64,000 nt of DNA, from contig NZ_MQWC01000004.1 of the NCBI RefSeq assembly GCF_002954405.1, forward strand, positions 1-64,000. Direction: 5' to 3'. The stretch is from Salinibacter sp. 10B. Its GTDB lineage: Bacteria; Bacteroidota; Rhodothermia; Rhodothermales; Salinibacteraceae. Below, piece after piece: positions 1 to 47,930 of the stretch (position 1 is its first letter; each line of letters begins with the position of its first letter). The notes below the pieces were generated by a model that saw only the letters and a list, made by a program, of their open reading frames with translations, was not told the DNA's origin and made no database searches. The translations under genes were made by a program, and so were the position numbers.

Positions 1-1206
1 AAGGCGGCTGGGCGGAAGGGGAAGTCGTCGCGTTTGGGATTCAAGGTAGTGGCAGAGAGGGAGGGGACGCAGTTGATGCAGGACGAGGCGGCGACCGTGC
101 TGGTCAGGTCAGGGGCGTCGGAGGGGTGGGACCGGTACGACGCGACGAAGTTGACGCCGCCGACAAACAAGTACGCGGTGATTGGGCCAGTGGGGAGAGG
201 GCGAGACGGGAGCGCGACGATGAAGGCGCAGGAGTCTATTGCGGAGATATCGGGGAAGGAGCAGACGGTGCCCTTGGGATTGAAGGTAAAGAAGTACGCG
301 GGGCCGCTGAGGGTCACGTTGAACGAGACCGTGAACGTTCCGGAGGAGTGGACGGTGAGGCTGGTAGACACGAAGGGGACGCCCGACCCGACCGACGACG
401 AGAAGCGACTGCTGGAGGAAGGGGGAGAGGGATACGAGTTTGTGTACGGGGGAGGGAAGGCGGGAGGAGGAAAGAAGGCCGGAGGAGGAGAAGCGGTGAG
501 GCAGGTTCGTCCGCCGGTACCGGAGCCGATTGACTGGAGTCCGCCGGGAGGGGAGGCAAAGAAGGCGTCCGGTGGATTGGAGGGGCGCTTTCGGATTGAG
601 ATTTCGAGGGGGGAGACGCTGCCGGTAGAGTTGGCGGGGATGGACGCGACGGTTCGGGGGCAGCAGGCCCGGTTGAAGTGGGAGACGGCGTCGGAGACGC
701 AGAATGCGGGGTTTCGGGTGCAGCACCAGCGGCTTGCGGAGGGAGACAGCATGCCGGGCCCGACGGGCTGGGAGTCGCTGGGATTTGTGGAGGGGGCAGG
801 GACGAGCAGTGAGGTGCAGCAGTACAGCTACGAGACCGAGCCGTTGGGATACGGGAGGCACGCGTTTCGGCTACGGCAGGTGGACGCAGACGGGGAGACG
901 ACGAGCAGTGAGCCGATCAGGGTAGAGGTAAGGCTGTCAGGGGCAGTAGCGATCGAGGGGCCAAGCCCGAACCCGGTACGGAGGGGAGCGGAGTTGGGCG
1001 TGACGGTAAGGTCGAGTCAGGAGGTAAGGATAGAGATGTACGACGTGCTGGGGCGGCAGGTACGAAGGGTGAAGGAGGAGAGGGTTCCGGGGGAGGAGCC
1101 TCAGAGGATTCGGATAGAGACGAGGGGACTTGCGAGCGGGACGTATTTTCTTCGGGTGAAGGGAGAGACGTTCCGGAAGACCCGTCGAATGACCGTCGTT
1201 CGGTAA
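1..1206 (+). CDS. T9SS-sorted surface protein, C-terminal part (5' end outside window)
   Basis: The first base of the window is already in an open frame that runs 401 codons to TAA. The translation equals residues 1109-1509 of the next gene (1844-6373). It holds a linker, an Ala/Gly/Lys-rich stretch and a C-terminal Por-secretion-type sorting domain (SPNPVRRG, MYDVLGRQV, GTYFLRVKGE, ending in VVR). In known T9SS substrates this domain directs transport across the outer membrane and is usually cleaved on anchoring. The N-terminal half, and so the passenger domain, is missing from the window. An internal ATG at 34 is an artefact of the cut and not a true start. The coding strand is very purine-rich. 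Confidence is high that this is the 3' end of a paralogue lying in tandem with the next gene. Confidence 0.9.
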   Translation, partial: KAAGRKGKSSRLGFKVVAEREGTQLMQDEAATVLVRSGASEGWDRYDATKLTPPTNKYAVIGPVGRGRDGSATMKAQESIAEISGKEQTVPLGLKVKKYAGPLRVTLNETVNVPEEWTVRLVDTKGTPDPTDDEKRLLEEGGEGYEFVYGGGKAGGGKKAGGGEAVRQVRPPVPEPIDWSPPGGEAKKASGGLEGRFRIEISRGETLPVELAGMDATVRGQQARLKWETASETQNAGFRVQHQRLAEGDSMPGPTGWESLGFVEGAGTSSEVQQYSYETEPLGYGRHAFRLRQVDADGETTSSEPIRVEVRLSGAVAIEGPSPNPVRRGAELGVTVRSSQEVRIEMYDVLGRQVRRVKEERVPGEEPQRIRIETRGLASGTYFLRVKGETFRKTRRMTVVR

Positions 1207-1207
1207 C
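1..1207. repeat. Perfect direct repeat, copy A (T9SS C-terminal cassette)
   Basis: Bases 1-1207 match 5168-6374 (offset 5167) without a difference that I could find. Shadow reading frames on both strands are also identical between the copies, which supports base-level identity. Similarity stops one base after the stop codon. The 5' limit of this copy lies outside the window. Confidence 0.93.
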
Positions 1208-1843
1208 AATCGGTCTGGCTCTTTAAATCGATCTGGAGGTCTTCGGATTTCGATATCGGGAATCCAGCAGGGGAGTGCTCGCAGTGTTCAACTCTCATGG
1301 TTTCCAGGGCAAATCGAAGCGTTGAAACTGACGTAATTTAGTCAGCAGATTTTTAAATAATCATGTTCTTATTTGGGGTTAGTGTCTGGTTTATGCTTTC
1401 GCATCCTGTCATAGCTTAGGTTTTCCAGTTAGGAGCGAGATCGGTGCAGGTCGGGATTTGATACTTCATAACGGATCCGGACGTGAGCGCCCTCAAACCC
1501 GTTGTTGAGGAGAAAGAGGCATCAATAGCACAAAATATTGAAGGGGGAAAAACATAATAGGGCGCGGCAGTTTTGAGTGACAATTTCGAATAAGAGGGTA
1601 GAAAAGAAATACGGAAGATTTTGCGGAAATTGAGAGAGGGAGGAAACTCCCATCTATCCACCTCTATACGCAACTATACGTAACTTCCATCCAACGGGTG
1701 CGTGGAAGTACGTAGTCTGGTATCGTCTTTGTCGAGCTTTCTGGTGAGGATTGATCAGAGAACGTCTCGGACTCTAAGAGGCACGTTTCGGAAGAGAGAC
1801 TCCAGACAAAGTCGAAACCTTCACATCCAGAAAGAACCACACC
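1208..1843. other. Intergenic region, no gene seen
   Basis: This 636-bp stretch is clearly more A+T-rich than its flanks (for example around 1321-1400 and 1541-1630). No reading frame here looks real. It should hold the promoter and 5' leader of the 1844 gene, but I could not fix a promoter with confidence. Confidence 0.6.
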
Positions 1844-4800
1844 ATGCAGACGTACTCAGGTCTAGTACGACTCCTTTCAGTAATGGGGCTTTTTGTGAGT
1901 CTGATGGTGTTCCTAGGAGGATCTCCAGCGTACGCTCAGTGCGACATTTATGTTGACACGAATGCCTCTGGGAACGGGAATGGGACTCAAGCGAGTCCCT
2001 ACACGAATTTACAAGATGGGTTGGATGAGGCGGTGAGTGGTGAAGTCGTCTGTGTGGCAGAGGGAACGTATAATCCGCCGAAAAAGAACACGGCCTTTTC
2101 CATAACTGGCGGGTCGACTCTTAGAGGAGGGTATCCAGCTGGGTTCGCTTCGACGACGCAAGATGTCGAGGGCAACCCCACGATTCTGGACGGCGCGAAT
2201 GTACAGCGTGGGTCATCGGCGAAACGGGTGTTAACACTTGGTAGTTTTTCGGGAACGACCGTTGTTGATGGCGTCACGATTGAGAATGGGAATGGGGGAG
2301 CTGGTGCTGGTTTCTCTATCGGAGGAGGAGGGTTTAGCGATACCGTAACGTTTCGGGACGTGATCTTTGCGAGCAATGACGCAAAGAATAATGATGGTGG
2401 TGCGGTTGAGCTTCGCGGAAGCGGGACGGCGAATTTTGAGGGTGTGTTGTTTCGGAGCAACACTGCTGGAAATGGAGGAGCGCTCTATGCCGGAACGAGC
2501 TTTACGCTTAATCTCGAAAATACAGCCTTCAGGGGGAATGAGTCCGGAGGAAGAGGAGGAGCTGTATATACAGAAGGCGGGAGAGTGAATATGGAGAATG
2601 TCTTGGCGGCCGGTAATTTGTCTCAGGGTGATGGTGGGGCATTCTACTTTAACTACAATGGCGGCCTGGGATTTGTGAATGTCACTGTCGCGGGGAATCG
2701 GGCGCAAGGAGGAGGGGGAGGCGTCTTCCTTGACTCGGACAATACGTCGACGATCGAGAACTCGATCATATGGGGAAATGCAGGAGATTCGGGTGCCGAT
2801 CAGGTTGCCTTGGCGAATGGGGGAACGGATCCCGTATACCGATACAGTGATATTCAGGGGTCAGGCGGATCCGGGGCTTGGGACTCGTCTTATGGAGATG
2901 ATAAGGGTGAGAACATTGCGCTCAACCCTATATTCTTGTCGCCGAAACAGCCATCGGCTGCTCCTACGACTGGTGGAGATTATCGGCTTGGAGCGCGCTC
3001 GCCTGCAGTCGATGCTGGAGATGATGGAGCGATTACCCTTTCGACTGATCTTGATGGGGAAAATCGAATACAAGAAGAGGCTGTTGACATGGGAGCGTAT
3101 GAGGGAAGTGCTCAGCTTCCCGACCCCGAGATTTTGTATGTAGATCAGTCTTCGGGCAGTGATGGGAATGGGGGAACCTCCTGGTCTGACGCCGTCGCGA
3201 CGCTGCAGGCTGCTTTGAGCCAAGCCTCCACTAACACAGAGATCTGGGTAGCAGATGGGGTTTATTATCCGGATGAGGGGCCCAACGTCTCGGACGGCGA
3301 GGTGGGAACCTCTTTTACGCTCAAGGATCGGGTGAGCATCTATGGGGGATTTGCCGGTAACGAGTCTAGTCGTTCGGAGCGAGACCCAGACGCAAATCTA
3401 GTTGTTTTAAGTGGGGATCTCGATCAGGACGACAATACCAACAAGTATGGGGTTGTGACGTCCCCGAGCGATCAGAATAGTGGGTCGAAAAATAACCCGA
3501 CGAACGCCTACCACGTCCTTGATGCAAGTGACGTCTCTGCACAGACGGTCGTTGATGGAGTTACGATCACAGCCGGCTCGGCAGACGACCGGAAGAAAAA
3601 GGACGGGCGCCCGGAAGAGGTGGGAGGAGGAGTTTTTATTGACAACGGAAGTCCGACCCTTTCAAACGTTCGAATTATTGGAAACCGGGCAAAGCTCGAT
3701 GGAGGAGGGATTGCCAGCTATGGAGGTGGAGGGCCGGTTCTTAGCGAAACGGTGATCGAGTCGAACCGATCTCAGCGAAACGGGGGCGGGATTTACAACG
3801 CTGACGGGAGCAGTCTTCGGGCTCGATTCGTAGTACTTCGGAGGAACACGGCTTCCAATGCAGGGGGCGGAATTTACAATACGCAATCGAACATTCGGTT
3901 TACGAATGTCACTATTGAGGGGAATGTGGCTTCTTCAAATTATGGGGGAGGAATCTATACGTCCTACTCGAATGGATCGATTTTGACAAACCTGCGGCTG
4001 GTGGGGAATCGGGCAGCCGCGGGAGGTGGATTCTATAACACGGGAGGAGGAGGCACCAAGACAACAATTGGGACCTCCTCATTTAGTGGGAATTACGCTA
4101 CAAATTCCAGCAATCCCCGGGGTGGGGCTATCTTCACTGCGAATGAGACTCTGGAACTGAACAATTCAATTGTATGGGGAAACGGCCCGAATCAGATTGT
4201 TGACCGGAATACCTTTTCTCAACAGTCTTCTCTGATTGAAGGAGGCCTGGGCGGGGCATTGAATCAGGATCCACTCTTTATCAGTGATCCAACCCTCGCG
4301 AGTAACGGGCCGACCACGGATGGGGATCTCCAACTCCAGCCGACTTCTCCCGCTGGAGATGCGGGAGCCAATACGCTTTTGCCCGCGGATGTTAGTGACC
4401 TCGATGACGATGGAGAAACTAGTGAACAACTACCTCTTGACTTGGCGGGGAGTCAACGGGTGAAGGACGGTGATGTCGATATGGGAGCGTACGAGGGCAC
4501 GAGTGCTAGTCTGACGGTGCAAGGCAGCTACGGAGCTGATGGCTCGGATGCGGGCTGGAGAGACATGGGAGTGCCGGTTACGGGATCGAGCGGGGCTATT
4601 ACCGTTGCCGACGTGGAGCGAGGGACAGGGACGGGCCTGGAGAATCTTTCGAAGTGGGGAGTGTGGCGAGACGTGAACGATTCCTGGAAGCGTCTTGACA
4701 AGGACAGTCCGCTTCCGGCGGGGCGCGGATTTACGGTGTACCTTTTCGACAAGCGGGAGTCGACGATTGACCCGAGCATCACGTTTGAGACGACCCAGGG

Positions 4801-6373
4801 ATCCATCATTGGGGATCAGGACGTGACGGTGGGAGACGGGAGCCCGACGGGGGATGGGGAGCTTGCGCAGGATGCTCAGTTCCACTTTCTCGCAAACCCC
4901 TACGCTGTCCCTTATGATTTAGCCGAGTTAAATAGCCAGGCCCCAAACTTTTCGGATTTCCAGACGACAGTTCAGGTTTGGAATGTAGATAACCGCAGTT
5001 ACCACACGATAGATGTAAGTCGCTTTAGCTCGGATAGGACAGGGATTTCGTCGTGGCAGGCGTTTTACGTTGAGCGATTTAACGTGGGGTCGGGGGCGAC
5101 GCAGTTGACGTTTCCGAGCAGTGGTCGTTTGCCGGCGGCGTCGAACACGAACTCATTTTTTGGGGAGAAGGCGGCTGGGCGGAAGGGGAAGTCGTCGCGT
5201 TTGGGATTCAAGGTAGTGGCAGAGAGGGAGGGGACGCAGTTGATGCAGGACGAGGCGGCGACCGTGCTGGTCAGGTCAGGGGCGTCGGAGGGGTGGGACC
5301 GGTACGACGCGACGAAGTTGACGCCGCCGACAAACAAGTACGCGGTGATTGGGCCAGTGGGGAGAGGGCGAGACGGGAGCGCGACGATGAAGGCGCAGGA
5401 GTCTATTGCGGAGATATCGGGGAAGGAGCAGACGGTGCCCTTGGGATTGAAGGTAAAGAAGTACGCGGGGCCGCTGAGGGTCACGTTGAACGAGACCGTG
5501 AACGTTCCGGAGGAGTGGACGGTGAGGCTGGTAGACACGAAGGGGACGCCCGACCCGACCGACGACGAGAAGCGACTGCTGGAGGAAGGGGGAGAGGGAT
5601 ACGAGTTTGTGTACGGGGGAGGGAAGGCGGGAGGAGGAAAGAAGGCCGGAGGAGGAGAAGCGGTGAGGCAGGTTCGTCCGCCGGTACCGGAGCCGATTGA
5701 CTGGAGTCCGCCGGGAGGGGAGGCAAAGAAGGCGTCCGGTGGATTGGAGGGGCGCTTTCGGATTGAGATTTCGAGGGGGGAGACGCTGCCGGTAGAGTTG
5801 GCGGGGATGGACGCGACGGTTCGGGGGCAGCAGGCCCGGTTGAAGTGGGAGACGGCGTCGGAGACGCAGAATGCGGGGTTTCGGGTGCAGCACCAGCGGC
5901 TTGCGGAGGGAGACAGCATGCCGGGCCCGACGGGCTGGGAGTCGCTGGGATTTGTGGAGGGGGCAGGGACGAGCAGTGAGGTGCAGCAGTACAGCTACGA
6001 GACCGAGCCGTTGGGATACGGGAGGCACGCGTTTCGGCTACGGCAGGTGGACGCAGACGGGGAGACGACGAGCAGTGAGCCGATCAGGGTAGAGGTAAGG
6101 CTGTCAGGGGCAGTAGCGATCGAGGGGCCAAGCCCGAACCCGGTACGGAGGGGAGCGGAGTTGGGCGTGACGGTAAGGTCGAGTCAGGAGGTAAGGATAG
6201 AGATGTACGACGTGCTGGGGCGGCAGGTACGAAGGGTGAAGGAGGAGAGGGTTCCGGGGGAGGAGCCTCAGAGGATTCGGATAGAGACGAGGGGACTTGC
6301 GAGCGGGACGTATTTTCTTCGGGTGAAGGGAGAGACGTTCCGGAAGACCCGTCGAATGACCGTCGTTCGGTAA
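1844..6373 (+). CDS. Large secreted beta-helix protein with T9SS C-terminal sorting domain
   Basis: This 1509-residue protein starts with a signal peptide (about residues 1-31, ending SPAYAQ). Two right-handed beta-helix blocks follow, at about 32-420 and 430-890. Each opens with a 'YVD..SG..GNG' segment, carries repeated Asn/Gly-rich rungs (GNGG, NSIIWGN, NSIVWGN) and closes with 'DMGAYEG', a layout known from 'choice-of-anchor Q' proteins. Residues about 890-1110 form a linker domain with repeated 'NPYAVPYD'-like and 'WQAFYVERF' segments. Residues 1109-1509 are the cassette shared with the gene at the window start and end in a T9SS sorting domain. The expected location is the cell surface or outside, and the likely role is adhesion or glycan binding; the ligand is unknown. 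G-ending, purine-rich codons become dominant toward the C-terminus, consistent with a mosaic gene. Confidence 0.9.
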   Translation: MQTYSGLVRLLSVMGLFVSLMVFLGGSPAYAQCDIYVDTNASGNGNGTQASPYTNLQDGLDEAVSGEVVCVAEGTYNPPKKNTAFSITGGSTLRGGYPAGFASTTQDVEGNPTILDGANVQRGSSAKRVLTLGSFSGTTVVDGVTIENGNGGAGAGFSIGGGGFSDTVTFRDVIFASNDAKNNDGGAVELRGSGTANFEGVLFRSNTAGNGGALYAGTSFTLNLENTAFRGNESGGRGGAVYTEGGRVNMENVLAAGNLSQGDGGAFYFNYNGGLGFVNVTVAGNRAQGGGGGVFLDSDNTSTIENSIIWGNAGDSGADQVALANGGTDPVYRYSDIQGSGGSGAWDSSYGDDKGENIALNPIFLSPKQPSAAPTTGGDYRLGARSPAVDAGDDGAITLSTDLDGENRIQEEAVDMGAYEGSAQLPDPEILYVDQSSGSDGNGGTSWSDAVATLQAALSQASTNTEIWVADGVYYPDEGPNVSDGEVGTSFTLKDRVSIYGGFAGNESSRSERDPDANLVVLSGDLDQDDNTNKYGVVTSPSDQNSGSKNNPTNAYHVLDASDVSAQTVVDGVTITAGSADDRKKKDGRPEEVGGGVFIDNGSPTLSNVRIIGNRAKLDGGGIASYGGGGPVLSETVIESNRSQRNGGGIYNADGSSLRARFVVLRRNTASNAGGGIYNTQSNIRFTNVTIEGNVASSNYGGGIYTSYSNGSILTNLRLVGNRAAAGGGFYNTGGGGTKTTIGTSSFSGNYATNSSNPRGGAIFTANETLELNNSIVWGNGPNQIVDRNTFSQQSSLIEGGLGGALNQDPLFISDPTLASNGPTTDGDLQLQPTSPAGDAGANTLLPADVSDLDDDGETSEQLPLDLAGSQRVKDGDVDMGAYEGTSASLTVQGSYGADGSDAGWRDMGVPVTGSSGAITVADVERGTGTGLENLSKWGVWRDVNDSWKRLDKDSPLPAGRGFTVYLFDKRESTIDPSITFETTQGSIIGDQDVTVGDGSPTGDGELAQDAQFHFLANPYAVPYDLAELNSQAPNFSDFQTTVQVWNVDNRSYHTIDVSRFSSDRTGISSWQAFYVERFNVGSGATQLTFPSSGRLPAASNTNSFFGEKAAGRKGKSSRLGFKVVAEREGTQLMQDEAATVLVRSGASEGWDRYDATKLTPPTNKYAVIGPVGRGRDGSATMKAQESIAEISGKEQTVPLGLKVKKYAGPLRVTLNETVNVPEEWTVRLVDTKGTPDPTDDEKRLLEEGGEGYEFVYGGGKAGGGKKAGGGEAVRQVRPPVPEPIDWSPPGGEAKKASGGLEGRFRIEISRGETLPVELAGMDATVRGQQARLKWETASETQNAGFRVQHQRLAEGDSMPGPTGWESLGFVEGAGTSSEVQQYSYETEPLGYGRHAFRLRQVDADGETTSSEPIRVEVRLSGAVAIEGPSPNPVRRGAELGVTVRSSQEVRIEMYDVLGRQVRRVKEERVPGEEPQRIRIETRGLASGTYFLRVKGETFRKTRRMTVVR

Positions 6374-6374
6374 C
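5168..6374. repeat. Perfect direct repeat, copy B (T9SS C-terminal cassette)
   Basis: Second copy of the 1.2-kb sequence at 1-1207. It begins exactly at codon 1109 of the 1844-6373 gene and ends one base past the TAA stop. It contains long purine-only stretches (for example within 5620-5665). Confidence 0.93.
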
Positions 6375-6480: not shown

Positions 6481-6933
6481 ATGACCGAATATAGACGACG
6501 GGATCGATCGACTCTGTTAAGGGGAGCACGGGTTCTGGGAGTTCTCAGTGTCTGTCTTCTAGCACTTCCAATTGCATTCGGTAGTGGGGGAGGAACCCTA
6601 TTCCAGGCAAAAGCACAGTACTCGGAAACCCGATCCGATGACCGGTCCATATACAACTCGCCGTCGGATCGTCTACGCTCGCGAGACGACCAGCGAAACA
6701 GAGAAGATCATTCCGATTTGGGGACCCTTCCGGATTGGGCAAGAAGTAGGGCGCACGGTAACCGAACGAAAACAGAGGAGTACGCAAGTGGGCCGTCATC
6801 GGGAGTGCAGACGAAGGATGGAAGGCCGGGAGTGCCAGTGGATGGAGGGCTCTTGTGGCTTCTTGTTGCCGGGTTCGGTTACGGCGTCTTTCGCCTTCGA
6901 GGAACGGGAAGCAGGAAGGCCGCAGCTCGCTAA
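6481..6933 (+). CDS. Small envelope protein with C-terminal PVDGGL-plus-helix anchor
   Basis: 150 residues. An N-terminal hydrophobic segment (about residues 14-45, ending KAQ) looks like a signal peptide. A polar, Arg/Asp/Ser-rich middle follows. The C-terminus has GVPVDGGL, then a hydrophobic helix (LLWLLVAGFGYGVFRL) and a basic tail. This tripartite end resembles the short 'PID-CTERM' sorting tails described in Bacteroidota, where a P-[IV]-D-G-G motif precedes one membrane helix; I make that link from memory. The gene sits 107 bp downstream of the 1844 gene and overlaps the end of the convergent 6930 gene by 4 bp. Function is unknown; an envelope protein tied to the neighbouring T9SS substrates is a guess from position. 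Confidence 0.7.
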   Translation: MTEYRRRDRSTLLRGARVLGVLSVCLLALPIAFGSGGGTLFQAKAQYSETRSDDRSIYNSPSDRLRSRDDQRNREDHSDLGTLPDWARSRAHGNRTKTEEYASGPSSGVQTKDGRPGVPVDGGLLWLLVAGFGYGVFRLRGTGSRKAAAR

Positions 6934-8159
6934 CGCATTCGTACCACCCGTTCCGTCTCCGTAAATGTTTCTCCATCTACTCTGAGCAAATAGCTGCCCG
7001 AGGAGAGACGATTTCCGGCCATTCGCATCTGAGTCTGAGCACCAGCCGATACGTCTACCGGACCTATCTCTTTCACCACACGTCCAAGCATATCTACGAG
7101 TTGAATCGTCACGCTCTGTGCGGCGCGAGGGGTCAGAGTAATGGTCATTTGTTCGGCAAATGGATTCGGGGCAGTGGTCAGATCAACCGGTCCCGATGGC
7201 TTTCGAACGAGCCGGACCGGTTCAGAATAGTGTGTCGCTCCGTCCTGGTCGATTTGCTTTAAGCGAAAGATGTGAGTTCCTGAATTGAGGGAAGAGGTCA
7301 TAAATCGGTAGGTTTGGGGCTCGTTGGTTGTGCCCTTCCCATTCACGAAACCGATTTTTGACCACTGATCTTTCGCGTCTGCATTATGCACCTCTTGATG
7401 CTGAATGGCAAACCCGCTGTTATTCGTCTCAGACATCGTTCGCCATCTGAGTACAGCCTGATCTCGGGTGGAGTTTACAGAGAACGAGGAGAGTTCTACA
7501 GGAAGGGAAGAGTCAGCAGGTCCGACTTCTCCGGCTAAGGCAATGTGTGTTGTATCCGATGTGGTTTTTTGAGCGGAAGGTGCCGATTTGGACGCTTCTT
7601 CTTCAGATGAGGAAGATGCCTCCAACTCGAACGAGATCGTATCGCTGGGGTCATCGATAACAAAAGTCTTACCTAGGGCCTCGCTCCGCAGTCGAAGCGA
7701 CCAGTTCGAGGGCACGGAGTACCACGTCTCGACACTGATCGTGTACGTCGCAGCCGGCATGTTTTTCTTGATCAGTTTAACGTCCACAACCTGCAAGCTG
7801 TCACTGTATGGTCGACTCTCTTGGGCTTTCAGAACTTCCTCACCATCTTTCACTCCTTCGAACGCAATGGCTGCCCAGCGGTCACCGCGGGGAAGAAGCT
7901 TAGAGGCGTCGTAGCGGTCCCATCCCATCGTGCCTTCGGACAGAAAGTAGAGACTGAAGGCCTTATCAACGGAAACTTCACCGCCAGCCGAATCCGTGGT
8001 TCTAAGGGTAAGGTCCATATATGCTACCTCCGAGGCGGAGGACAGGGTGGGTTGTTGGGAAGGAGCATCCGGAGTATCCCAATTGGCCTGCGCCGGCGTG
8101 CAGAGACCAAGAAAAAGAAAAAAGAGGGCTGTTATAAGCTCAGTAGATGTGAATCGCAT
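6930..8159 (-). CDS. T9SS-sorted secreted protein, diverged relative of the 1.2-kb cassette
   Basis: 409 residues from ATG 8159, chosen because a signal peptide starts there (MRFTSTELIT..., ending TPAQA); the frame stays open upstream to 8234. Residues about 40-200 match the cassette of the 1844 protein: 'GWDRYDASKL' against 'GWDRYDATKL', 'KAQES' in both, and 'VPSNWSLRL' against 'VPEEWTVRL'. An 'LPVELSSF...W.T.SETNN.GF.IQH' beta-sandwich segment follows, and then a T9SS sorting domain (APNPFAEQ, LVDMLGRVV, GSYLLRVDGE). In effect it is the C-terminal module of the large protein with no beta-helix in front. It is probably secreted through T9SS and may act as a stand-alone surface protein. It overlaps the end of the small envelope protein gene by 4 bp. 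Confidence 0.88.
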   Translation of the reverse strand: MRFTSTELITALFFLFLGLCTPAQANWDTPDAPSQQPTLSSASEVAYMDLTLRTTDSAGGEVSVDKAFSLYFLSEGTMGWDRYDASKLLPRGDRWAAIAFEGVKDGEEVLKAQESRPYSDSLQVVDVKLIKKNMPAATYTISVETWYSVPSNWSLRLRSEALGKTFVIDDPSDTISFELEASSSSEEEASKSAPSAQKTTSDTTHIALAGEVGPADSSLPVELSSFSVNSTRDQAVLRWRTMSETNNSGFAIQHQEVHNADAKDQWSKIGFVNGKGTTNEPQTYRFMTSSLNSGTHIFRLKQIDQDGATHYSEPVRLVRKPSGPVDLTTAPNPFAEQMTITLTPRAAQSVTIQLVDMLGRVVKEIGPVDVSAGAQTQMRMAGNRLSSGSYLLRVDGETFTETERVVRMR

Positions 8160-8861
8160 GGCGATCAAGGGGGCTTTTCCGAGGTGATCGTGAGTCCTCA
8201 GCATCAGCGGATTGCTCCGTGTGTCCCCAGCCACTGTTGTGTGTAGAAGCTAGGCAGGTCCTTGAATGCTATCCACAATGTGCAAAATGGGGGAGGAGAC
8301 GTCTATACGCATCTTCTCGTAATTATTGAGATACTTCCCCCGATTCCTGCTATCAATTCGGTCTTGAACCGTCAGATGTGCCGATCGCTTGACCGATGGG
8401 GGGGGGGCAACGTCTAAATTTCAGGTGAGCCGATGCTGGGCGTGGGGAGGGAGTGCCTTTGGAGAGCATTCCGTTCTCATCTCTTTCGCTTGGTTGCAAT
8501 CCCGCCGTCTGCGAAGTGGGTATAGGCGAACGGAAAACGACGAAAGGGGACGTCCGCTTCGATCAGCCGAGAGGCAAGAGGGAGGGCTGACCCTGGGCTC
8601 GTGCGGGACGCCGATCGAGACGGGGGCAAAGGGGGCTGCGGGATCCTGCGTCGGATGGTCCTAGTGGACTGTTACACCTCATGTGTGGAGGGCACGGAGT
8701 CCATCCGACATTCGCCGAGAAGAGGCAATGCCGAGGGGCGCCTGTATGACCGCTCTACGGAAGGCGAACGGCTCTGGATGATGAGGGTGAATCCCGAATC
8801 GTGACCCGTCAATCCATTCGTAACAGTCCACTAGACCCGGAGGATGAGCACGAAGGGGATT
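8160..8861. other. Intergenic region with a G10 run and a MITE-like insertion
   Basis: This 702-bp stretch has no convincing gene. It holds the upstream region of the minus-strand 6930-8159 gene, a run of ten G at 8398-8407, and the inverted-repeat element at 8661-8834. Short open frames here have no recognisable features. Confidence 0.6.
8661..8834. mobile_element. MITE-like element with 15-bp perfect terminal inverted repeats
   Basis: CTAGTGGACTGTTAC at 8661-8675 is the exact reverse complement of GTAACAGTCCACTAG at 8820-8834. The element is 174 bp and too short for a transposase. If the outer CTAG (or TA) is the duplicated target, the inverted repeats proper are GTGGACTGTTAC. Such ends fit a non-autonomous derivative of a DDE insertion sequence (IS5- or IS630-like). 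No parent element is present in the window. Confidence 0.65.
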
Positions 8862-41414: not shown

Positions 41415-42125
41415 ATGTCTCGTCCAGCATTCGCACTGCTCGTGTTCGCTCCCCTCGCAGGTTTGCTGTTGGGGCTGGCGCCGGAGGCTCAGGCGCAGCA
41501 GGCCTCTGAGACATCATCCGAGGATCAGACTCGACGGGAGATCCGGGTGGACCTGGGGGGCGGTTGGGGCATTCCCATCCGCAATGTCGACTTGCAGGGA
41601 GAGACCGTTCAGAATGTCGAGCCCCTGGACGTCAACATGACTTCCGGGCCGCACGCGTACGTGGGGATGGGGTTCGTGCGGACCATCGCGGAGAATTTCG
41701 CGCTGGGTGCTCGAGTGCGAGGCCAGGCAACCCGGCTTCGGGCGAAGGTGGACGCCTGTAATGATGGGTTGTCGTGCCGGAAGCCGGATGGGCTGCAGTG
41801 GGCGGCCACTGTTGAAGGCCGCATCATCATCACGGCGCCCGACTGGGTGAACCCATATTTGCTTGTCGGGCTCGGGGTGGTGCAGACCACCGTGGACGCT
41901 GTGACGGTACAGGGAGTTCAGAATCCAAGACTTCCAGAGACCATTACGTTTGCGGGGGCCTCGGTCGTTGACGCGGGGGGAAACATTGGGATTGGGGCGT
42001 CACTTCCGCTCACCGACCGGCTCTACCTCGACACCGAATTTCGAGTGACGGGGGCGTTGCCGGGAGGGAAGGAGAATGCCGTATCGATCCTTCCATTTAC
42101 CGCCGGTCTGTCGTACGGATTCTAG
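41415..42125 (+). CDS. Outer-membrane beta-barrel protein
   Basis: 236 residues from ATG 41415, set by a clear signal peptide (SRPAFALLVFAPLAGLLLGLAPEAQAQ). The rest is made of alternating amphipathic strands (EIRVDLGGGWGIPI, HAYVGMGFVRTIAENFALGARVRG, NPYLLVGLGVVQTTV, NIGIGASLPLTDRLYLDTEFRVTG) and ends SYGF, an aromatic C-terminal residue as in many barrels. It looks like a small 8-strand OmpW/opacity-type barrel. Cys pairs (DACNDGLSCRKPDG) may form a disulfide in a loop. Function is unknown. The S8-like protease gene starts 85 bp downstream. Confidence 0.82.
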   Translation: MSRPAFALLVFAPLAGLLLGLAPEAQAQQASETSSEDQTRREIRVDLGGGWGIPIRNVDLQGETVQNVEPLDVNMTSGPHAYVGMGFVRTIAENFALGARVRGQATRLRAKVDACNDGLSCRKPDGLQWAATVEGRIIITAPDWVNPYLLVGLGVVQTTVDAVTVQGVQNPRLPETITFAGASVVDAGGNIGIGASLPLTDRLYLDTEFRVTGALPGGKENAVSILPFTAGLSYGF

Positions 42126-42210
42126 GACGAAAGCGTTGTCCAGCGTCCAAGGGAGCCGTCTAATGGATTACTCTGTCGCTCTTCATCTGTTTGAGGATCT
42201 TTCGGATCAC

Positions 42211-44823
42211 ATGATCTATCTACGGTCGTCCGTCGTCTTCGTCGCTTTGGCGGTTTTGCTCGGAGGAGGGGTCTCCAGTCTACATGCCCAAGAGCGCCCG
42301 AAAGCCATCGGGCAACTCCAGACGCGCTCACTTGCCCCTTCGGTGATTCAGACGGCAGAGAAGTCGGTGTGGGGGAGTCGGCAGAAGGACGGGGAGCAAG
42401 GGCCAATGGCAAAGATTGGGTTGGAGCTGGCGCTTTTGTACCACCAGTACCAGGCGGAAGGGCCCAGTGGAATTCGGCGTCTGCGGGAATCGCGGGAGCG
42501 GTCCAAGCGCGCCTCCGATCCGCGGTCCGTCCGAAGTCGGGTCCGGTCTCCGATCGCCGCCAGCGGGCGCACCGTGATCGTAGAGGCCCTATCGAACGGA
42601 GAGGGCACAACGCTACTCAGCGATCTCCGACGGCTTGGGCTGGAACGCGGGGCGGCGATGGGGAGACTCGTATCAGGACGGCTGCCCATCTCTGCTCTTC
42701 GGGAGGCGGCGGGGCTCTCTACACTGCGAGGCATGGTGCCATCGTACGCTCGGAGCCACGCGGGCAGCGTAGGGTCGGAGGCCGACACCGCCCATGCGGC
42801 CTATCGCGTCCGATCGACCTTCAATCTAGATGGTAGCGGCCAAAAGGTATGTGCTCTTTCCGATAGCTACAATCAGAGCAGCTCGGCTGCCACGACGGCA
42901 GAGGACGACATCCAGTCGGGGGATTTGCCCGGCGAGGGAAATCCGCAGGGCAACACGCAAGCCGTTGACGTGCTGGACGACGATTATGGGGGATCTCCTG
43001 CTCCCACGGATGAGGGCCGTGCTATGCTCCAGCTCATTCACGACATTGCGCCCGGGGCCACGCTGGGCTTCCATACTGCGTTTGGGGGACTTGCCGATTT
43101 TGCGAATGGGATCCTGGAGCTTGCGAACCCCAATAAAGGGGATTGCGACGTGATTGTGGACGATGTGGGGTATGCGGTAGAGCCGTTTTATCAAGACGGT
43201 ATTCTTGCCAATGCTGTAGATGAAGCCGTCCAGACGTACGACGCTGCCTACTTCTCCTCGGCGGGAAATGACGGTCGGAATGCCTATCAGGCCCCCTTTC
43301 GCGACTCTGGAAACCCGGGTGTTCTCAGCGACGATGCCGTGGCCCACGACTTTGCCGAGGGGGCCGCGGTGGACACGCTCCAGCAGGTGACGGTGGCGCC
43401 GGGCGGGACGTTCCGGATCTTTACGCTGCAATGGACGGATCCGTCCGGGGTCGTGGAGGGCTCGGCGGGCCCGGACACCGATCTCGATGTCGCCATCCTA
43501 GACGATACGTTGGGCGTGGTGGCAAAGTCCGAAAATCAAAACATCGATTCCGGCTTTCCGGTGGAGAGTCTGGAGTTTTCGAACGCGGGCGAGATTGATA
43601 CCGATGAGGATGGTGTGGCGGATTCGACCTTTCATCTGGTCATTGAGAAAGCCGCCGGCCCCGATCCCGATGAGGTCCGGTACATCTATTCGGGGAGTCA
43701 GTACAGCATTGATCAGTACGATACGTTAGGGGCGACGATCTACGGGCATCCGAAGGCAGAGGGGGCTATGGCCGTGGCGGCGGCTCCGTTTTTCTATACG
43801 CCGGCCTACGTTAGCGTCGACGCCCCGTTTCTGGAATCCTTCTCGTCGAAGGGGGGCATTCCGATTCTTTTTGATCAGACCGGAAACCGGATTTCTCCTG
43901 TGGATCGGGAAAAGCCGGACGTGACGGGAGCTGATGCCATCGACAACACCTTCTTCGGCAACGACCTACAATTTCCCTCTGACTCGCCGATTGGGGGCGT
44001 CGATTCGGATCCGCACCCCAATTTCTTCGGCACGTCGGCGGCCGCGCCGAACATCGCAGCGATCGCGGCTCTCATCCGACAGTCGCGTCCGTCTCTTTCG
44101 TACCAGGAGGTCTACAATTCCCTGCGGTCCGGGACGCAGGACATTACGCAGCGGATCACCCGGGAGGGAGAGCTCCAGGACATCGGAGAAGGGAGAGATC
44201 CCTGGAGCGGGACCGGGTTTGTGCTGGCGGAAGAAGCAGTGCCGCCTCCCCGCACGCTGCAAATTGTGAATCTTGCGGCGGACGGAACCCTTTCGTCTCG
44301 GAACGAGGCCACGTTGGAGCTCAGCTGGAGCCTGGTTGGAGAGGGGCAGGTGGACGCATTTCTGATCGAGCGTCAATTTTTCGATGGCCCCTTTACGGAG
44401 CAGACAACCGTCACGCCGGACGGGGAGAGGCAGTTTTCCAATAGCATCGAGAATTTGCCGCCCGGCAAGCACACGTTTCGAATCACAGCGGTGCGGAACG
44501 ACAGCGTCATCACGACCAGCACCACGGAGAGAATTTTGCAGGCGGGAGGCCCGAATGTGATGCTTTACCCCAATCCGTTTCGGGAGCGGACGAATGTGTC
44601 CGTCACGCTTCCCTCGAACGGAGGGCCGGAAGAGGTGCGCGTTAGTGTCTATGACGCCCTGGGGCGGCGGGTGGCCACCCCCGTTGAGGCACGGTCTGTG
44701 GACGCGACGCAGTCGATTACGCTTACCCCCTCAGAGCTTGGCATTTCCGGGGCCGGAATGTACTTCTTCCGAGTGAAAGGAGAGTCATTCACTCGAACGG
44801 TTCAAGGCGTGTACAGTCCCTGA
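42211..44823 (+). CDS. Secreted S8/sedolisin-like peptidase with T9SS sorting domain
   Basis: 870 residues from ATG 42211, set by the signal peptide (IYLRSSVVFVALAVLLGGG..., ending LHAQ). The subtilisin-like fold runs from about residue 205 to 650. Asp218 is in VCALSDSYN; the usual HGT His position holds Glu268 in DEGRAMLQLIHDIAPG; the oxyanion Asn is in FSSAGNDGRNAY; and Ser609 is in GTSAAAPNIAA. This gives an Asp-Glu-Ser set, as in sedolisins (S53) or related S8 outliers, instead of Asp-His-Ser. A fibronectin-like stretch and a T9SS sorting domain (LYPNPFRERTN, VYDALGRRV, GMYFFRVKGES) follow. It should be exported through T9SS and act outside the cell, probably in degrading protein. Confidence 0.88.
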   Translation: MIYLRSSVVFVALAVLLGGGVSSLHAQERPKAIGQLQTRSLAPSVIQTAEKSVWGSRQKDGEQGPMAKIGLELALLYHQYQAEGPSGIRRLRESRERSKRASDPRSVRSRVRSPIAASGRTVIVEALSNGEGTTLLSDLRRLGLERGAAMGRLVSGRLPISALREAAGLSTLRGMVPSYARSHAGSVGSEADTAHAAYRVRSTFNLDGSGQKVCALSDSYNQSSSAATTAEDDIQSGDLPGEGNPQGNTQAVDVLDDDYGGSPAPTDEGRAMLQLIHDIAPGATLGFHTAFGGLADFANGILELANPNKGDCDVIVDDVGYAVEPFYQDGILANAVDEAVQTYDAAYFSSAGNDGRNAYQAPFRDSGNPGVLSDDAVAHDFAEGAAVDTLQQVTVAPGGTFRIFTLQWTDPSGVVEGSAGPDTDLDVAILDDTLGVVAKSENQNIDSGFPVESLEFSNAGEIDTDEDGVADSTFHLVIEKAAGPDPDEVRYIYSGSQYSIDQYDTLGATIYGHPKAEGAMAVAAAPFFYTPAYVSVDAPFLESFSSKGGIPILFDQTGNRISPVDREKPDVTGADAIDNTFFGNDLQFPSDSPIGGVDSDPHPNFFGTSAAAPNIAAIAALIRQSRPSLSYQEVYNSLRSGTQDITQRITREGELQDIGEGRDPWSGTGFVLAEEAVPPPRTLQIVNLAADGTLSSRNEATLELSWSLVGEGQVDAFLIERQFFDGPFTEQTTVTPDGERQFSNSIENLPPGKHTFRITAVRNDSVITTSTTERILQAGGPNVMLYPNPFRERTNVSVTLPSNGGPEEVRVSVYDALGRRVATPVEARSVDATQSITLTPSELGISGAGMYFFRVKGESFTRTVQGVYSP

Positions 44824-44863: not shown

Positions 44864-47575
44864 TTATTCCACTTCATCCACCGCGTCGCTGGCGGCGTCC
44901 TCGTCCATCTCGCCGTTTTGGGCAGAGGCGTCGTCCTCCGATGCGGCCTCCTCGGTGTTCTCTGCCTCCTCAGTGTCTCGGACCCGGGTCACGTCGGCGA
45001 TGCGGTCGCCATCCTTGAGGTTGATCACGCGCACGCCCTGCGTGTTGCGGCCCATGGTGCTGATCTCTTCGACCCGTGTACGGATCATGATGCCGTTCAC
45101 GGTGATGATCATCAGATCTTCGCTGCCGTAGACGCCCTTGATGGCCACGAGGTTGCCTGTACGCTCGGTGCGGTTAAGGGTGATGAGACCCTTTCCACCT
45201 CGTCCTTGCACCCGATACTCGCTCAGGGACGTCCGTTTGCCGTATCCATTTTCGGCGACGGCCAATACATCCATTTCCTCGCTGGCATCCGGGGGAACCG
45301 AGATCATGCCCACCATCTCCTGGTCGCCGGGCAGCTTCATGCCGCGGACGCCGCGGGTGTTGCGGCCCATGGGACGCGCGTCGTTCTCATCGAAGTGGAC
45401 AGCCCGTCCGCCCGATGAGGCCACGACCACGGTGTGGTCGCCCCCGGTGAGGGAGGCCTCAATCAGCTCGTCGCCCTCATCAATCTTAATGCCGATGATG
45501 CCGTTGGAGCGGGGGCGGCTGTAGGCTTCCAGGGCCGTCTTCTTGACCATGCCTTGTCGCGTGGCGGCCAGCACGTAGTGGCTGTTGAGGAAGTCCTCGT
45601 CTTCAAAGTCGTCCTTGCTCACGCTAATGACGGTTCGAACGCGGTCGTCGGCGTCAATGTCGATGAGTTGACGAATGGACCGCCCTTTGGCCGTGCGGCT
45701 ACCCTCCGGGATTTCAAAGGGCCGCAACCAGAAGCATTGTCCCTTGTCGGTAAAGAGGAGGAGGACGTCGTGGGAGTGACAGACGTACAGGTGCTCGATG
45801 AAGTCGTCCTCACGCTTGCCGGTGCCCCGCATACCGACCCCACCGCGGCCTTGTGTGCGGTAAGTGTCGATGGGCGTGCGCTTGGTGAGGCCCTGGTGCG
45901 TGATGGTGACAACGACGTGCTCGCGTTCAATCAAGTCCTCGATGATGATGTCGTCGCCGCCGGTGTAATCGATCTCCGTGCGGCGCTCGTCGTCGAATCG
46001 CTCCTTGACCTTTAGCAACTCCTCTTTGATGAGCTCCATCCGGCGCTCCTTGCTATCGAGCAGATGCTGGAGCTCTTTGATCTTGTCGATGATGTCCTCG
46101 TATTCGCCGATGATCTTTTCCCGCTCCATCCCCGTCAGGCGGCTCAGGCGGAGGCGAAGGATGGCATTGGCCTGATCCTCCGTGAGCCAGTGGCCTTCCT
46201 CCGGCTGCTGAACGAGTTTCTCGTACTCGTCGCCGAGAAGCTTCTGGACCGTATCCTGCGTGCGGTCGGCCTCCACAGGCGGCTCAAGAGGAACATTGAG
46301 CTCGCGGAGGTCCGGTTTGGAGAGCGTCTCCGGGTAGCGGCCCCGGCGAAGGTTTTGGCGGGCCGCGTCGGTGTCGGGCGAATGGCGGATGATGGCAATG
46401 ACGGCGTCGAGGTGGTCGAGCGCGAGGGTCAGGCCCTCCAAGATGTGCGCCCGGTCCTGGGCCTGCTTCAGATCGTACTCCGTGCGACGCACCACAATCT
46501 CGTGCCGGTGGTCCACGTAGTGCCGGATGGCGTCTTTGAGGTCGACCACCTTCGGTCGCCCGTTCACCAGCGCCACCATATTGACGCCGAACGTGTCCTG
46601 CAGGCGGGAATGCTTATAGACCTGATTCTTGACGATCTCCGCGTTGGCGTCGCGCTTCAGCTCAATGACGATGCGCAGGCCGTCGCGGTCGCTCTCGTCG
46701 CGCAGGTCGGCGATGCCCTCGATGCGGTCTGCCCGGACCCGGTCGGCGATGCGTTCAACTTCCCGACTCTTGTTGACCTGGTACGGCATCTCCGTCACCA
46801 CCAACGCGCGCCGGCCGCTGCGCACCTCTTCTTCATGCATCTTCGCACGCATCACAACCCGTCCCCGGCCCGAGTGGTAGGCGTTGTAAACGCCCTGATA
46901 GCCGTAGATAATGCCCCCGGTCGGAAAGTCCGGCGCCGGGAGGTGCTCCATCAAATCGTCGATCTCGATTTCCGGATCGTCGATGTAGGCCACCGTGGCG
47001 TCGATCGTCTCGCCCAAGTTGTGGGGGGGGATCTTGGTGGCCATCCCCACAGCGATGCCGTCCGCTCCGTTCACCAGCATGTTGGGGAACGCCGCCGGCA
47101 ACACAACGGGCTCCTCCATCGTCCCGTCGAAGTTTTCCTGCGTGTCGACGGTCTCCTTGCCGATGTCGTGCAGCATCTGCTCGGCGATGCGCGTCATGCG
47201 GGCCTCGGTGTAACGCATGGCTGCTGCCGAGTCGCCATCGATCGAGCCGAAGTTGCCCTGCCCGTCGGCCAGGGGATAGCGCATGGAAAATTCCTGAGCC
47301 ATCCGCACAAGCGTGTCGTACACCGACGAATCTCCGTGCGGATGGTACTTTCCGAGTACCTCCCCGACGATACGAGCACTTTTCTTGTAGTTGGCCCCCT
47401 GTGTGAGGCCGAGTTCGTGCATGCCGTAGAGCACGCGACGGTGTACTGGCTTGAGCCCGTCGCGCACGTCAGGCAGCGCGCGGCTCACGATGACGGACAT
47501 CGAGTAGTCGATGTAGGAGGACTTCATCTCCTCCTCGATGTTAATGGGGATAACGCGGCTGTCGTCCGCTTCCAT
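44864..47575 (-). CDS. gyrA: DNA gyrase subunit A
   Basis: 903 residues from ATG 47575 ([35 protein letters not shown]); an upstream extension to 47641 lacks family sequence. The quinolone-pocket segment is [15 protein letters not shown], with Ser at the E. coli 83 position and Asp at the 87 position, so no known resistance change is seen. The catalytic Tyr is in [10 protein letters not shown]. The C-terminal beta-pinwheel carries QGRGGKG as its GyrA box. An acidic tail follows ([14 protein letters not shown]...), unusually rich in Asp/Glu, as expected in a halophile. With GyrB it introduces negative supercoils. It converges on the S8-like gene with a 40-bp gap. Confidence 0.97.
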
Positions 47576-47930
47576 GCTCCGAAGGGGGCTTCGTGAAAGA
47601 GCGTGAACAGAGGGGGGTGGCGTGCTGCGCATGGCGCACACACATCCCTACCAAGGTAGGGGTCGGGTGGCAGAAGTGCCACCGCCAGGGTGGGGGGAAG
47701 GGAGGCCTCTGCTTTGAAAAATACGGGAGGAGATCTTTGAGGAAGCGTGGGCCCGAAGCGTACCGGCAAAGAGAGGGGGGACTCATCCAAATACTCATGG
47801 CGGCGGCGCAATGCGATCGTAGATTCGTCGGGCGAAAGAGCGCACGTGTACGGGTCCCTTGGGGGAGAGGCTCGATTGGATCCGAGGCGTATACGACCGT
47901 TCCCCTGCCTACCAAAGTAATTTTGGGCTC
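47576..47930. promoter_or_regulatory. gyrA leader region with two palindromes
   Basis: Two symmetric sequences lie between gyrA (minus) and the small + gene. CCCTACC-AA-GGTAGGG is at 47646-47661, and the GGTGGCA/TGCCACC hairpin spans 47666-47683. They are about 70-110 bp before the gyrA start on its strand. They could be a protein-binding site, a transcript hairpin or both. Confidence 0.45.

Follow-up and report, generated by a model that had tools for sequence, protein, structure and literature searches.

Identical C-terminal modules in two diverged tandem genes for predicted type IX secretion cargo in Salinibacter sp. 10B, probably homogenised by gene conversion

The locus and its two genes

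The first 64,000 nucleotides of contig NZ_MQWC01000004.1 of Salinibacter sp. 10B, presumably a halophile, were analysed (hereafter the window, i.e. the first 64 kb of contig C4, which measures 4,316,401 bp, 4.32 Mb). The window opens with the end of one gene (gene 1), followed by a second, complete one (gene 2), both predicted to encode cargo of the type IX secretion system (T9SS). The C-terminal parts of the two genes are identical over two tracts, blocks A and B, and this identity probably reflects recent, patchy gene conversion that homogenised the C-terminal modules of the pair. The features concerned are the following, with window coordinates unless a contig is named; G010 is a genome of the same genus set.

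1-1207, plus strand: tail of gene 1: its final 401 codons, the stop and one more base, i.e. as much of copy 1 of block B as falls within the window
967-1191, plus strand: sorting domain of gene 1, placed by offset from gene 2
1208-1843, plus strand: spacer between genes 1 and 2, which differs from the sequence after gene 2
1844-6373, plus strand: gene 2, an open reading frame (ORF) of 1,509 amino acids (aa) with beta-helix/POMP repeats, a choice-of-anchor Q domain and a C-terminal T9SS type A domain
1844-4538, plus strand: front of gene 2, upstream of the identical tracts; orthologous to the front of G010:C140:338-4876
4539-4911, plus strand: block A (373 bp), with its exact counterpart in gene 1 at C4:4315784-4316156
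4912-5037, plus strand: diverged island between blocks A and B, with a length of 126 bp here and 114 bp in gene 1
5038-6374, plus strand: second copy of block B (1,337 bp), matched exactly by the end of gene 1, where the counterpart is C4:4316271-4316400 followed by window 1-1207
6134-6358, plus strand: Por_Secre_tail domain of gene 2 (residues 1431-1505; 30.7 bits, cut-off 27)

The gene 2 product matches PF13229, PF02415 and PF18962 in Pfam and NF041518, TIGR01376 and TIGR04183 in NCBIfam. TIGR04183 scores 30.4 bits (cut-off 23), and the T9SS type A domain exceeds the curated cut-off in both libraries. The N-terminus of the translation is hydrophobic and, by eye, resembles a signal peptide. 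POMP-type repeats are present in the front of gene 1 too. Two components of the T9SS machinery were searched for in the same genome and both were detected, SprA with 1673 bits (cut-off 200) and the PorV family with 336 bits (cut-off 90). Both products may thus be classed as putative T9SS type A cargo, their secretion being a prediction from sequence.

When the front of gene 2 was used as query, a relative was located at the extreme end of C4. The last base of the contig is the same as its first base, and when this one-base terminal overlap is dropped, the reading frame at the contig end (L046:15803-19000) continues into window 1-1206. C4 thus appears to close on itself, with genes 1 and 2 in tandem; the extra base, if real, would make gene 1 a frameshifted gene. 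An earlier sequence-only reading of two tandem T9SS genes is correct only in the first case. From its most likely ATG, at C4:4313296, gene 1 encodes 1,436 aa, of which the first 1,035 are encoded at the contig end. Between 110 and 311 bp upstream of gene 2 lies a stretch similar to the sequence before gene 1 (142 of 222 aligned columns), and the upstream region was therefore probably part of the old duplication.

Extent of the identical tracts

As had been noted from the sequence alone, window positions 1-1207 and 5168-6374 are the same without a single mismatch, and identity breaks at 1208/6375, one base past the TAA stop codon. An exact match of 1.2 kb by chance is out of the question. The left limit of the repeat had been expected beyond the window, and extension across the contig junction places it 130 bp beyond window base 1, which brings block B to 1,337 bp, in addition to the 373 bp of block A. 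Blocks A and B together take up the C-terminal module, from directly behind the final choice-of-anchor-like stretch (delimited by eye) to the stop codon. The sorting signal makes up only about 75 of the approximately 610 residues of this module, the identical tract being much larger than the signal. Along the alignment of gene 1 with gene 2, the mosaic passes in sharp steps between approximately 60% and 100% identity.

The genome comprises 4.75 Mb in ten contigs, five of them short contigs made of N only and outside the copy count. A DNA search of the readable contigs for further copies of the tail, the presence of which the sequence-only reading had suggested checking, returned only the two known places.

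Old front parts and a tail probably equalised recently

The three-way comparison of gene 1, gene 2 and their single outgroup gene, the G010 homolog (C140:338-4876, 1,512 aa), covered codons 1-899 as the front part, with 805 aligned residues. In this part gene 2 shares 585 residues with G010, whereas gene 1 shares 417 with gene 2 and 401 with G010. At amino-acid sites where two of the sequences agree against the third, gene 2 sides with G010 at 222, gene 1 with gene 2 at 54 and gene 1 with G010 at 38. In the blocks this signal flips: the same three counts are 1, 61 and 0 in block A and 0, 229 and 1 in block B, the odd sites lying at the edges. The patterns of front and blocks differ with a Fisher p of 8e-104, neighbouring sites not being independent. 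Over the tail the two paralogs are the same, and neither is nearer to G010 than the other.

Synonymous positions give the same picture. At fourfold degenerate sites of the front part, 77 of 218 are identical between genes 1 and 2, 80 between gene 2 and G010 and 69 in the third pair, so that these sites look saturated. In block B all 118 are identical between genes 1 and 2 and 39 of the 118 are shared with G010, and in block A 36 of 37 are identical between the two genes, the edge codon being counted. Over both blocks no synonymous change was found in 568 codons (420 synonymous sites), with a 95% upper limit for dS (synonymous changes per synonymous site) of about 0.007. The paralogs are thus closer to each other than to the ortholog inside the tract and the reverse holds outside it, and synonymous sites are homogenised inside the tract only. 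Saturated sites in the front together with identical sites in the tail indicate that the pair is old and that the identity of its tails is new. Comparison of the N-terminal halves, as had been proposed, therefore reveals homologous but old, diverged paralogs. Of the two origins put forward from the sequence alone, gene conversion is supported by the flip of the phylogenetic signal at the tract edges, while very recent duplication of the gene does not agree with the saturated front.

The diverged island between the blocks shows no clear preference (3, 7 and 6 sites in the order given above), which calls for at least two patches, or for patchy repair.

Gene order and relatives

A search with gene 2 of 13 genomes of the genus set, this one included, gave matches at E 1e-60 or better in seven genomes. 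Outside the genome under study only G010 matches gene 2 over its full length, the other five matching from about residue 800 onward. The front of gene 1, searched in 27 genomes of the family (this one included), has a match only in G010 besides its own genome, and a separate search for loci related to gene 2, in a set that may exclude this genome, returned no relative.

To the right of gene 2 lie four minus-strand ORFs in an order that G010 shares: the next T9SS gene, one more ORF and two that look by eye like genes for a response regulator and a sensor kinase. On the left, the G010 contig begins 337 bp before its gene, and the left neighbour, present in 12 of the 13 genus genomes, is missing from the G010 assembly. 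For the right side, which is the only one that can be read, the flanks are therefore unexchanged: gene order is kept in G010, and the spacer after gene 1 is unlike the sequence after gene 2. That gene 2 keeps its own right flank fits conversion without crossover.

The first of these minus-strand ORFs (window 6930-8234) is a T9SS gene of 434 aa which resembles a C-terminal module with hardly any passenger, being 34% identical to an early part of the cassette and 41% to its last part; it occupies the same position in G010. Between it and gene 2, a plus-strand ORF of 150 aa (6481-6933) has a PID-CTERM sorting match of 24.5 bits, just below the cut-off of 26. Farther away, window 42076-44823 (plus strand) encodes a T9SS-tailed protein of 915 aa with, by eye, a subtilisin-like GTSAAAP stretch, and faces a gene resembling that of DNA gyrase A (by eye) at 44864-47641.

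Other T9SS tails in the same genome and in G010

Tails of 25 of the 32 other own tail matches, together with those of genes 1 and 2, were compared with tails of 30 of the 51 G010 matches; left out were L025, L028, L029 and four matches without loci on the own side, and 21 matches without loci in G010. In 11 other reciprocal-best tail pairs between the two genomes, identity ranges from 45 to 87% aa. A second tandem pair of the same genome (L006/L007) follows species descent, its orthologs being 87% and 80% identical and its tandem partners 61% and 59%. These values bear out the earlier statement that T9SS modules normally diverge, including the 61% found within a tandem pair of this very genome. 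Among 771 tail pairs of non-neighbours within either genome, the highest identity is 62%. A concerted evolution that affects every T9SS tail of this genome was also considered, and none was seen, L006/L007 going by descent and non-neighbours not exceeding 62%.

An all-against-all blastn of 28 own tail loci (L011 and L028 being one gene), the window and the contig end brought up no further tail pair that is near-identical over a long stretch; the longest remaining match was 331 bp at 78% and fell outside the tails. Further exact copies of the tail are therefore absent from the readable contigs, and near-identical ones from the 28 loci. Cassette-based antigenic variation draws on silent donors, and none was found, the readable genome containing two DNA copies and the 28 other tail loci none.

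Some tail pairs deserve mention in their own right. Four pairs between this genome and G010 (L013/L097, L014/L098, L017/L108 and L019/L104) have reciprocal-best tails of 54-65% aa identity and only 27-30% upstream of them, and are either missed orthologs or genes with exchanged passengers. The G010 pair L114/L117 is 75.6% identical in aa and 84% in DNA over 669 bp, L114 containing a stop and being an orphan tail fragment. The orphan T9SS tail fragment without passenger ORF in L123 (G010:C206, 2235-2897) is a decayed tail copy which matches the tail of the next gene (7104-7769) at 84% over 667 bp and extends past the stop of that gene. In another genome, L084 (G007:C14) is a tandem T9SS pair with frames of 1,956 and 2,207 aa from stop to stop, whose DNA similarity is longest at the tail (515 bp at 70%), with shorter stretches of 145 and 63 bp elsewhere.

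Proposed mechanism and direction of transfer

Genes 1 and 2 would thus be an old tandem pair encoding T9SS-secreted surface proteins of beta-helix type, whose fronts have diverged to about half identity. Their C-terminal modules of about 610 aa, consisting of spacer domains and the type A signal, would have been equalised recently by homologous recombination without crossover, in two patches. That identity ends at the stop codon would be due to the right-hand patch having extended as far as the two genes are homologous. A proposed benefit is that an efficient common secretion module is kept while the exposed parts differ.

Gene 1 is the likely source and gene 2 the recipient. Against G010, gene 2 reaches 73% identity in its front, and still 74% over the 100 residues that precede block A, but 47-50% within the blocks; gene 1 is at the 47-50% level throughout. 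Six reciprocal-best pairs whose upstream parts are clearly related (56-80%) have ratios of tail to upstream identity between 0.89 and 1.17; against G010 the ratio is 0.75 for gene 2 (55% in the tail, 73% in the front) and 1.1 for gene 1 (55% and 50%). This test omits L013, L014, L017 and L019, whose upstream parts are 27-30% identical, and L006, whose partner L092 is almost without an upstream part. Since the similarity of gene 2 drops in the blocks to the level of gene 1, and the six controls show no such drop, it is moderately supported that gene 1 was the donor and gene 2 was overwritten.

The sequence-only reading had gone further and spoken of passengers being swapped onto a constant module. 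This is only partly right: the fronts are themselves homologous (417/805), the tract far exceeds the sorting signal, and a near-identical tail is absent from the other own tail loci compared. Passenger shuffling at this locus is possible.

Several observations weigh against conversion as set out here or against its details. The contig break falls within block B, in an assembly that has the look of short reads, so that the exactness of the repeat depends on that assembly. Within the island gene 2 has no closer tie to G010 than gene 1 (3 sites against 6), which misfits a simple single event. The front parts are too different to recombine readily, and repeated earlier conversions must be assumed. 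The direction comparison is uneven: measured as in the six control pairs, the 660 aa upstream in gene 2 include the blocks and are 53% identical to G010, and faster evolution of the C-terminal module could produce the same signal. Among the 27 family genomes searched, a homolog of the front is found in only one other genome, G010, which makes strain comparison impossible, and an ortholog of gene 1 in G010 may be unassembled.

Alternative explanations

The strongest alternative, although an unlikely one, is an effect of assembly: the tails would be similar rather than identical, or present in more than two copies, and a short-read assembler would have used one collapsed repeat for both. Contigs C1, C9 and C10 overlap with their own ends by exactly 260 bases and start in runs of A, while C5 does not. 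A self-overlap of 260 bases with an A-run start is a mark of circular contigs from a de Bruijn assembler, and C1, C9 and C10 are probably circular replicons left untrimmed by such an assembler. C4 is cut 130 bp, i.e. half of 260, inside block B, and a random cut would fall within either copy with a chance of about 0.0006. C4 also contains 48 consecutive N, either an assembly gap or masked sequence, and the five short contigs of N only are sequence that cannot be checked. We take this to mean that the assembly came from a short-read graph with block B collapsed into a single repeat, which supports near-identity and leaves room for a few smoothed differences or extra copies. However, collapse in such a graph already demands near-identity, the unique front halves, the spacer and the right flank are each present in the assembly, and block A is a second identical stretch away from the cut. 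In general, perfect repeats at contig ends should not be taken at face value.

It is less probable still that a recent tandem duplication was followed by replacement of the front of gene 1 by a diverged allele from another strain, in an allelic exchange anchored in the tail. Such an exchange would likewise yield the same tails and different fronts, and domain exchange between strains is described for T9SS proteins of Porphyromonas gingivalis (PMC5266723). But everything outside blocks A and B would have to be replaced, including the island and the unlike downstream flank, and the regions upstream of the two genes are homologous yet diverged (142/222 columns).

Recent whole-gene duplication with one front diverging fast under selection can practically be set aside: gene 1 does have a long aa branch (sites differing alone are 222 for gene 1, 38 for gene 2 and 54 for G010), but the front fourfold sites look saturated against 118/118 identical in block B, which protein selection does not cause; this speaks against such a duplication unless the front was acquired from another source. 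Recent tandem duplication of the whole gene in its plain form was rejected as well, with 417 of 805 residues and 77 of 218 fourfold sites identical in the front. Gene conversion thus remains the preferred explanation; what is observed are tracts without mismatch in the assembly, abrupt mosaic borders and a phylogenetic signal that flips, and recombination between the two genes would account for them.

Related loci in other genomes

A tail alignment of 12 sequences was used as query for a survey of the best 80 of at least 566 confirmed loci with related tails, 79 of the 80 being titled as metagenome-assembled genomes (MAGs). Because loci entered the survey for resembling this tail, and second tails for resembling the first, the frequencies below are no estimates, and chimeras in MAGs are possible. 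A second tail-like stretch on the same strand was found in 40 of the 80 loci, in all 40 within another ORF. In eight of the 40 (L131, L137, L141, L156, L163, L176, L196 and L200, all MAGs) the tails are at least 84% identical in DNA over at least 200 bp.

In six of the eight, the rest of both genes could be compared, and part or all of the passenger is far less alike than the tail; in L137 and L200 the second gene is truncated by the contig end. Passenger and tail identities (aa) are 21-23% against 90% in L196 and 40% against 87% in L131. In L156 they are 22-29% against 63-64% over the last 200 aa, strong likeness being confined to part of the tail, and in L176 the front is 31% identical and the final 400 residues 79-87%. 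L163 has 30-31% in the front and 71-76% in the tail, with one pair at 70% in the 200 residues before the tail, and a stretch of 356 bp, 91.6% identical, terminates both an FG-GAP/DUF5122 propeller gene and a GLUG-motif gene. In L141 the middle is 54%, the tail 97% and the front 76% identical. The tandem T9SS genes of L131 and L141 are similar at the start side and the tail with a diverged middle, like cassettes with a variable middle.

Five of the eight loci (L131, L137, L141, L176 and L200) have a tail copy at the end of a contig, as does the present pair, compared with two of the 32 other second-tail loci (Fisher p 0.0015). The median identity of neighbouring tails is 61.1% (23 pairs) against 50.3% for distant ones (60 pairs); the neighbours were picked by similarity and the pairs are dependent, and this difference was not counted as evidence.

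The survey raises the tentative and somewhat doubtful idea that neighbouring T9SS cargo genes recurrently trade or homogenise their C-terminal module, in Rhodothermota, Ignavibacteriota and Bacteroidota according to record titles, and that the repeats so formed break draft assemblies. By this wider survey, ongoing shuffling in other lineages is plausible. If the idea is true, one working secretion address would be retained on diverging or exchanged passengers, and breakage of drafts would hide how often this occurs.

Comparison with known systems

Adhesin repeats of the gingipain/haemagglutinin genes rgpA, kgp and hagA of P. gingivalis are described as identical within and between genes and as incompletely resolved by automated assembly, gene conversion being suggested (PMC5266723), and domain rearrangement and allelic exchange are inferred across strains for T9SS cargo of this species. 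The present pair resembles these genes in encoding T9SS-exported surface proteins with parts identical between genes, and differs from them in that there adhesin domains are shared, in many strains of a pathogen, while here a single genome has one tandem pair with a beta-helix passenger and with the sorting signal inside the tract. In the literature searched, with partial coverage, neither this pair nor any homogenised T9SS tails from organisms other than P. gingivalis were described. That tandem genes for surface proteins undergo gene conversion is established, and it is the example in a secretion tail that is new.

Outer-membrane adhesin paralogs of Helicobacter and the Pmp proteins of Chlamydia have shared ends and a variable middle or front, and their secretion route is not T9SS. 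Pmp-type repeats, as in the Chlamydia proteins, are present in genes 1 and 2.

If the survey signal holds, T9SS tails would act as recombination anchors for surface-protein evolution in several lineages, and draft genomes would under-count such recombination because assemblers break there. The pair described here would be a clean case of recent partial conversion in T9SS cargo, in which the exported part is free to diverge and the secretion module is uniform. It resembles the short-term concerted evolution of bacterial outer-membrane protein paralogs, in which paralogs of the same genome are closer than orthologs, but unlike there, homogenisation is confined to the C-terminal secretion module of a T9SS cargo pair and leaves an unconverted island within it.

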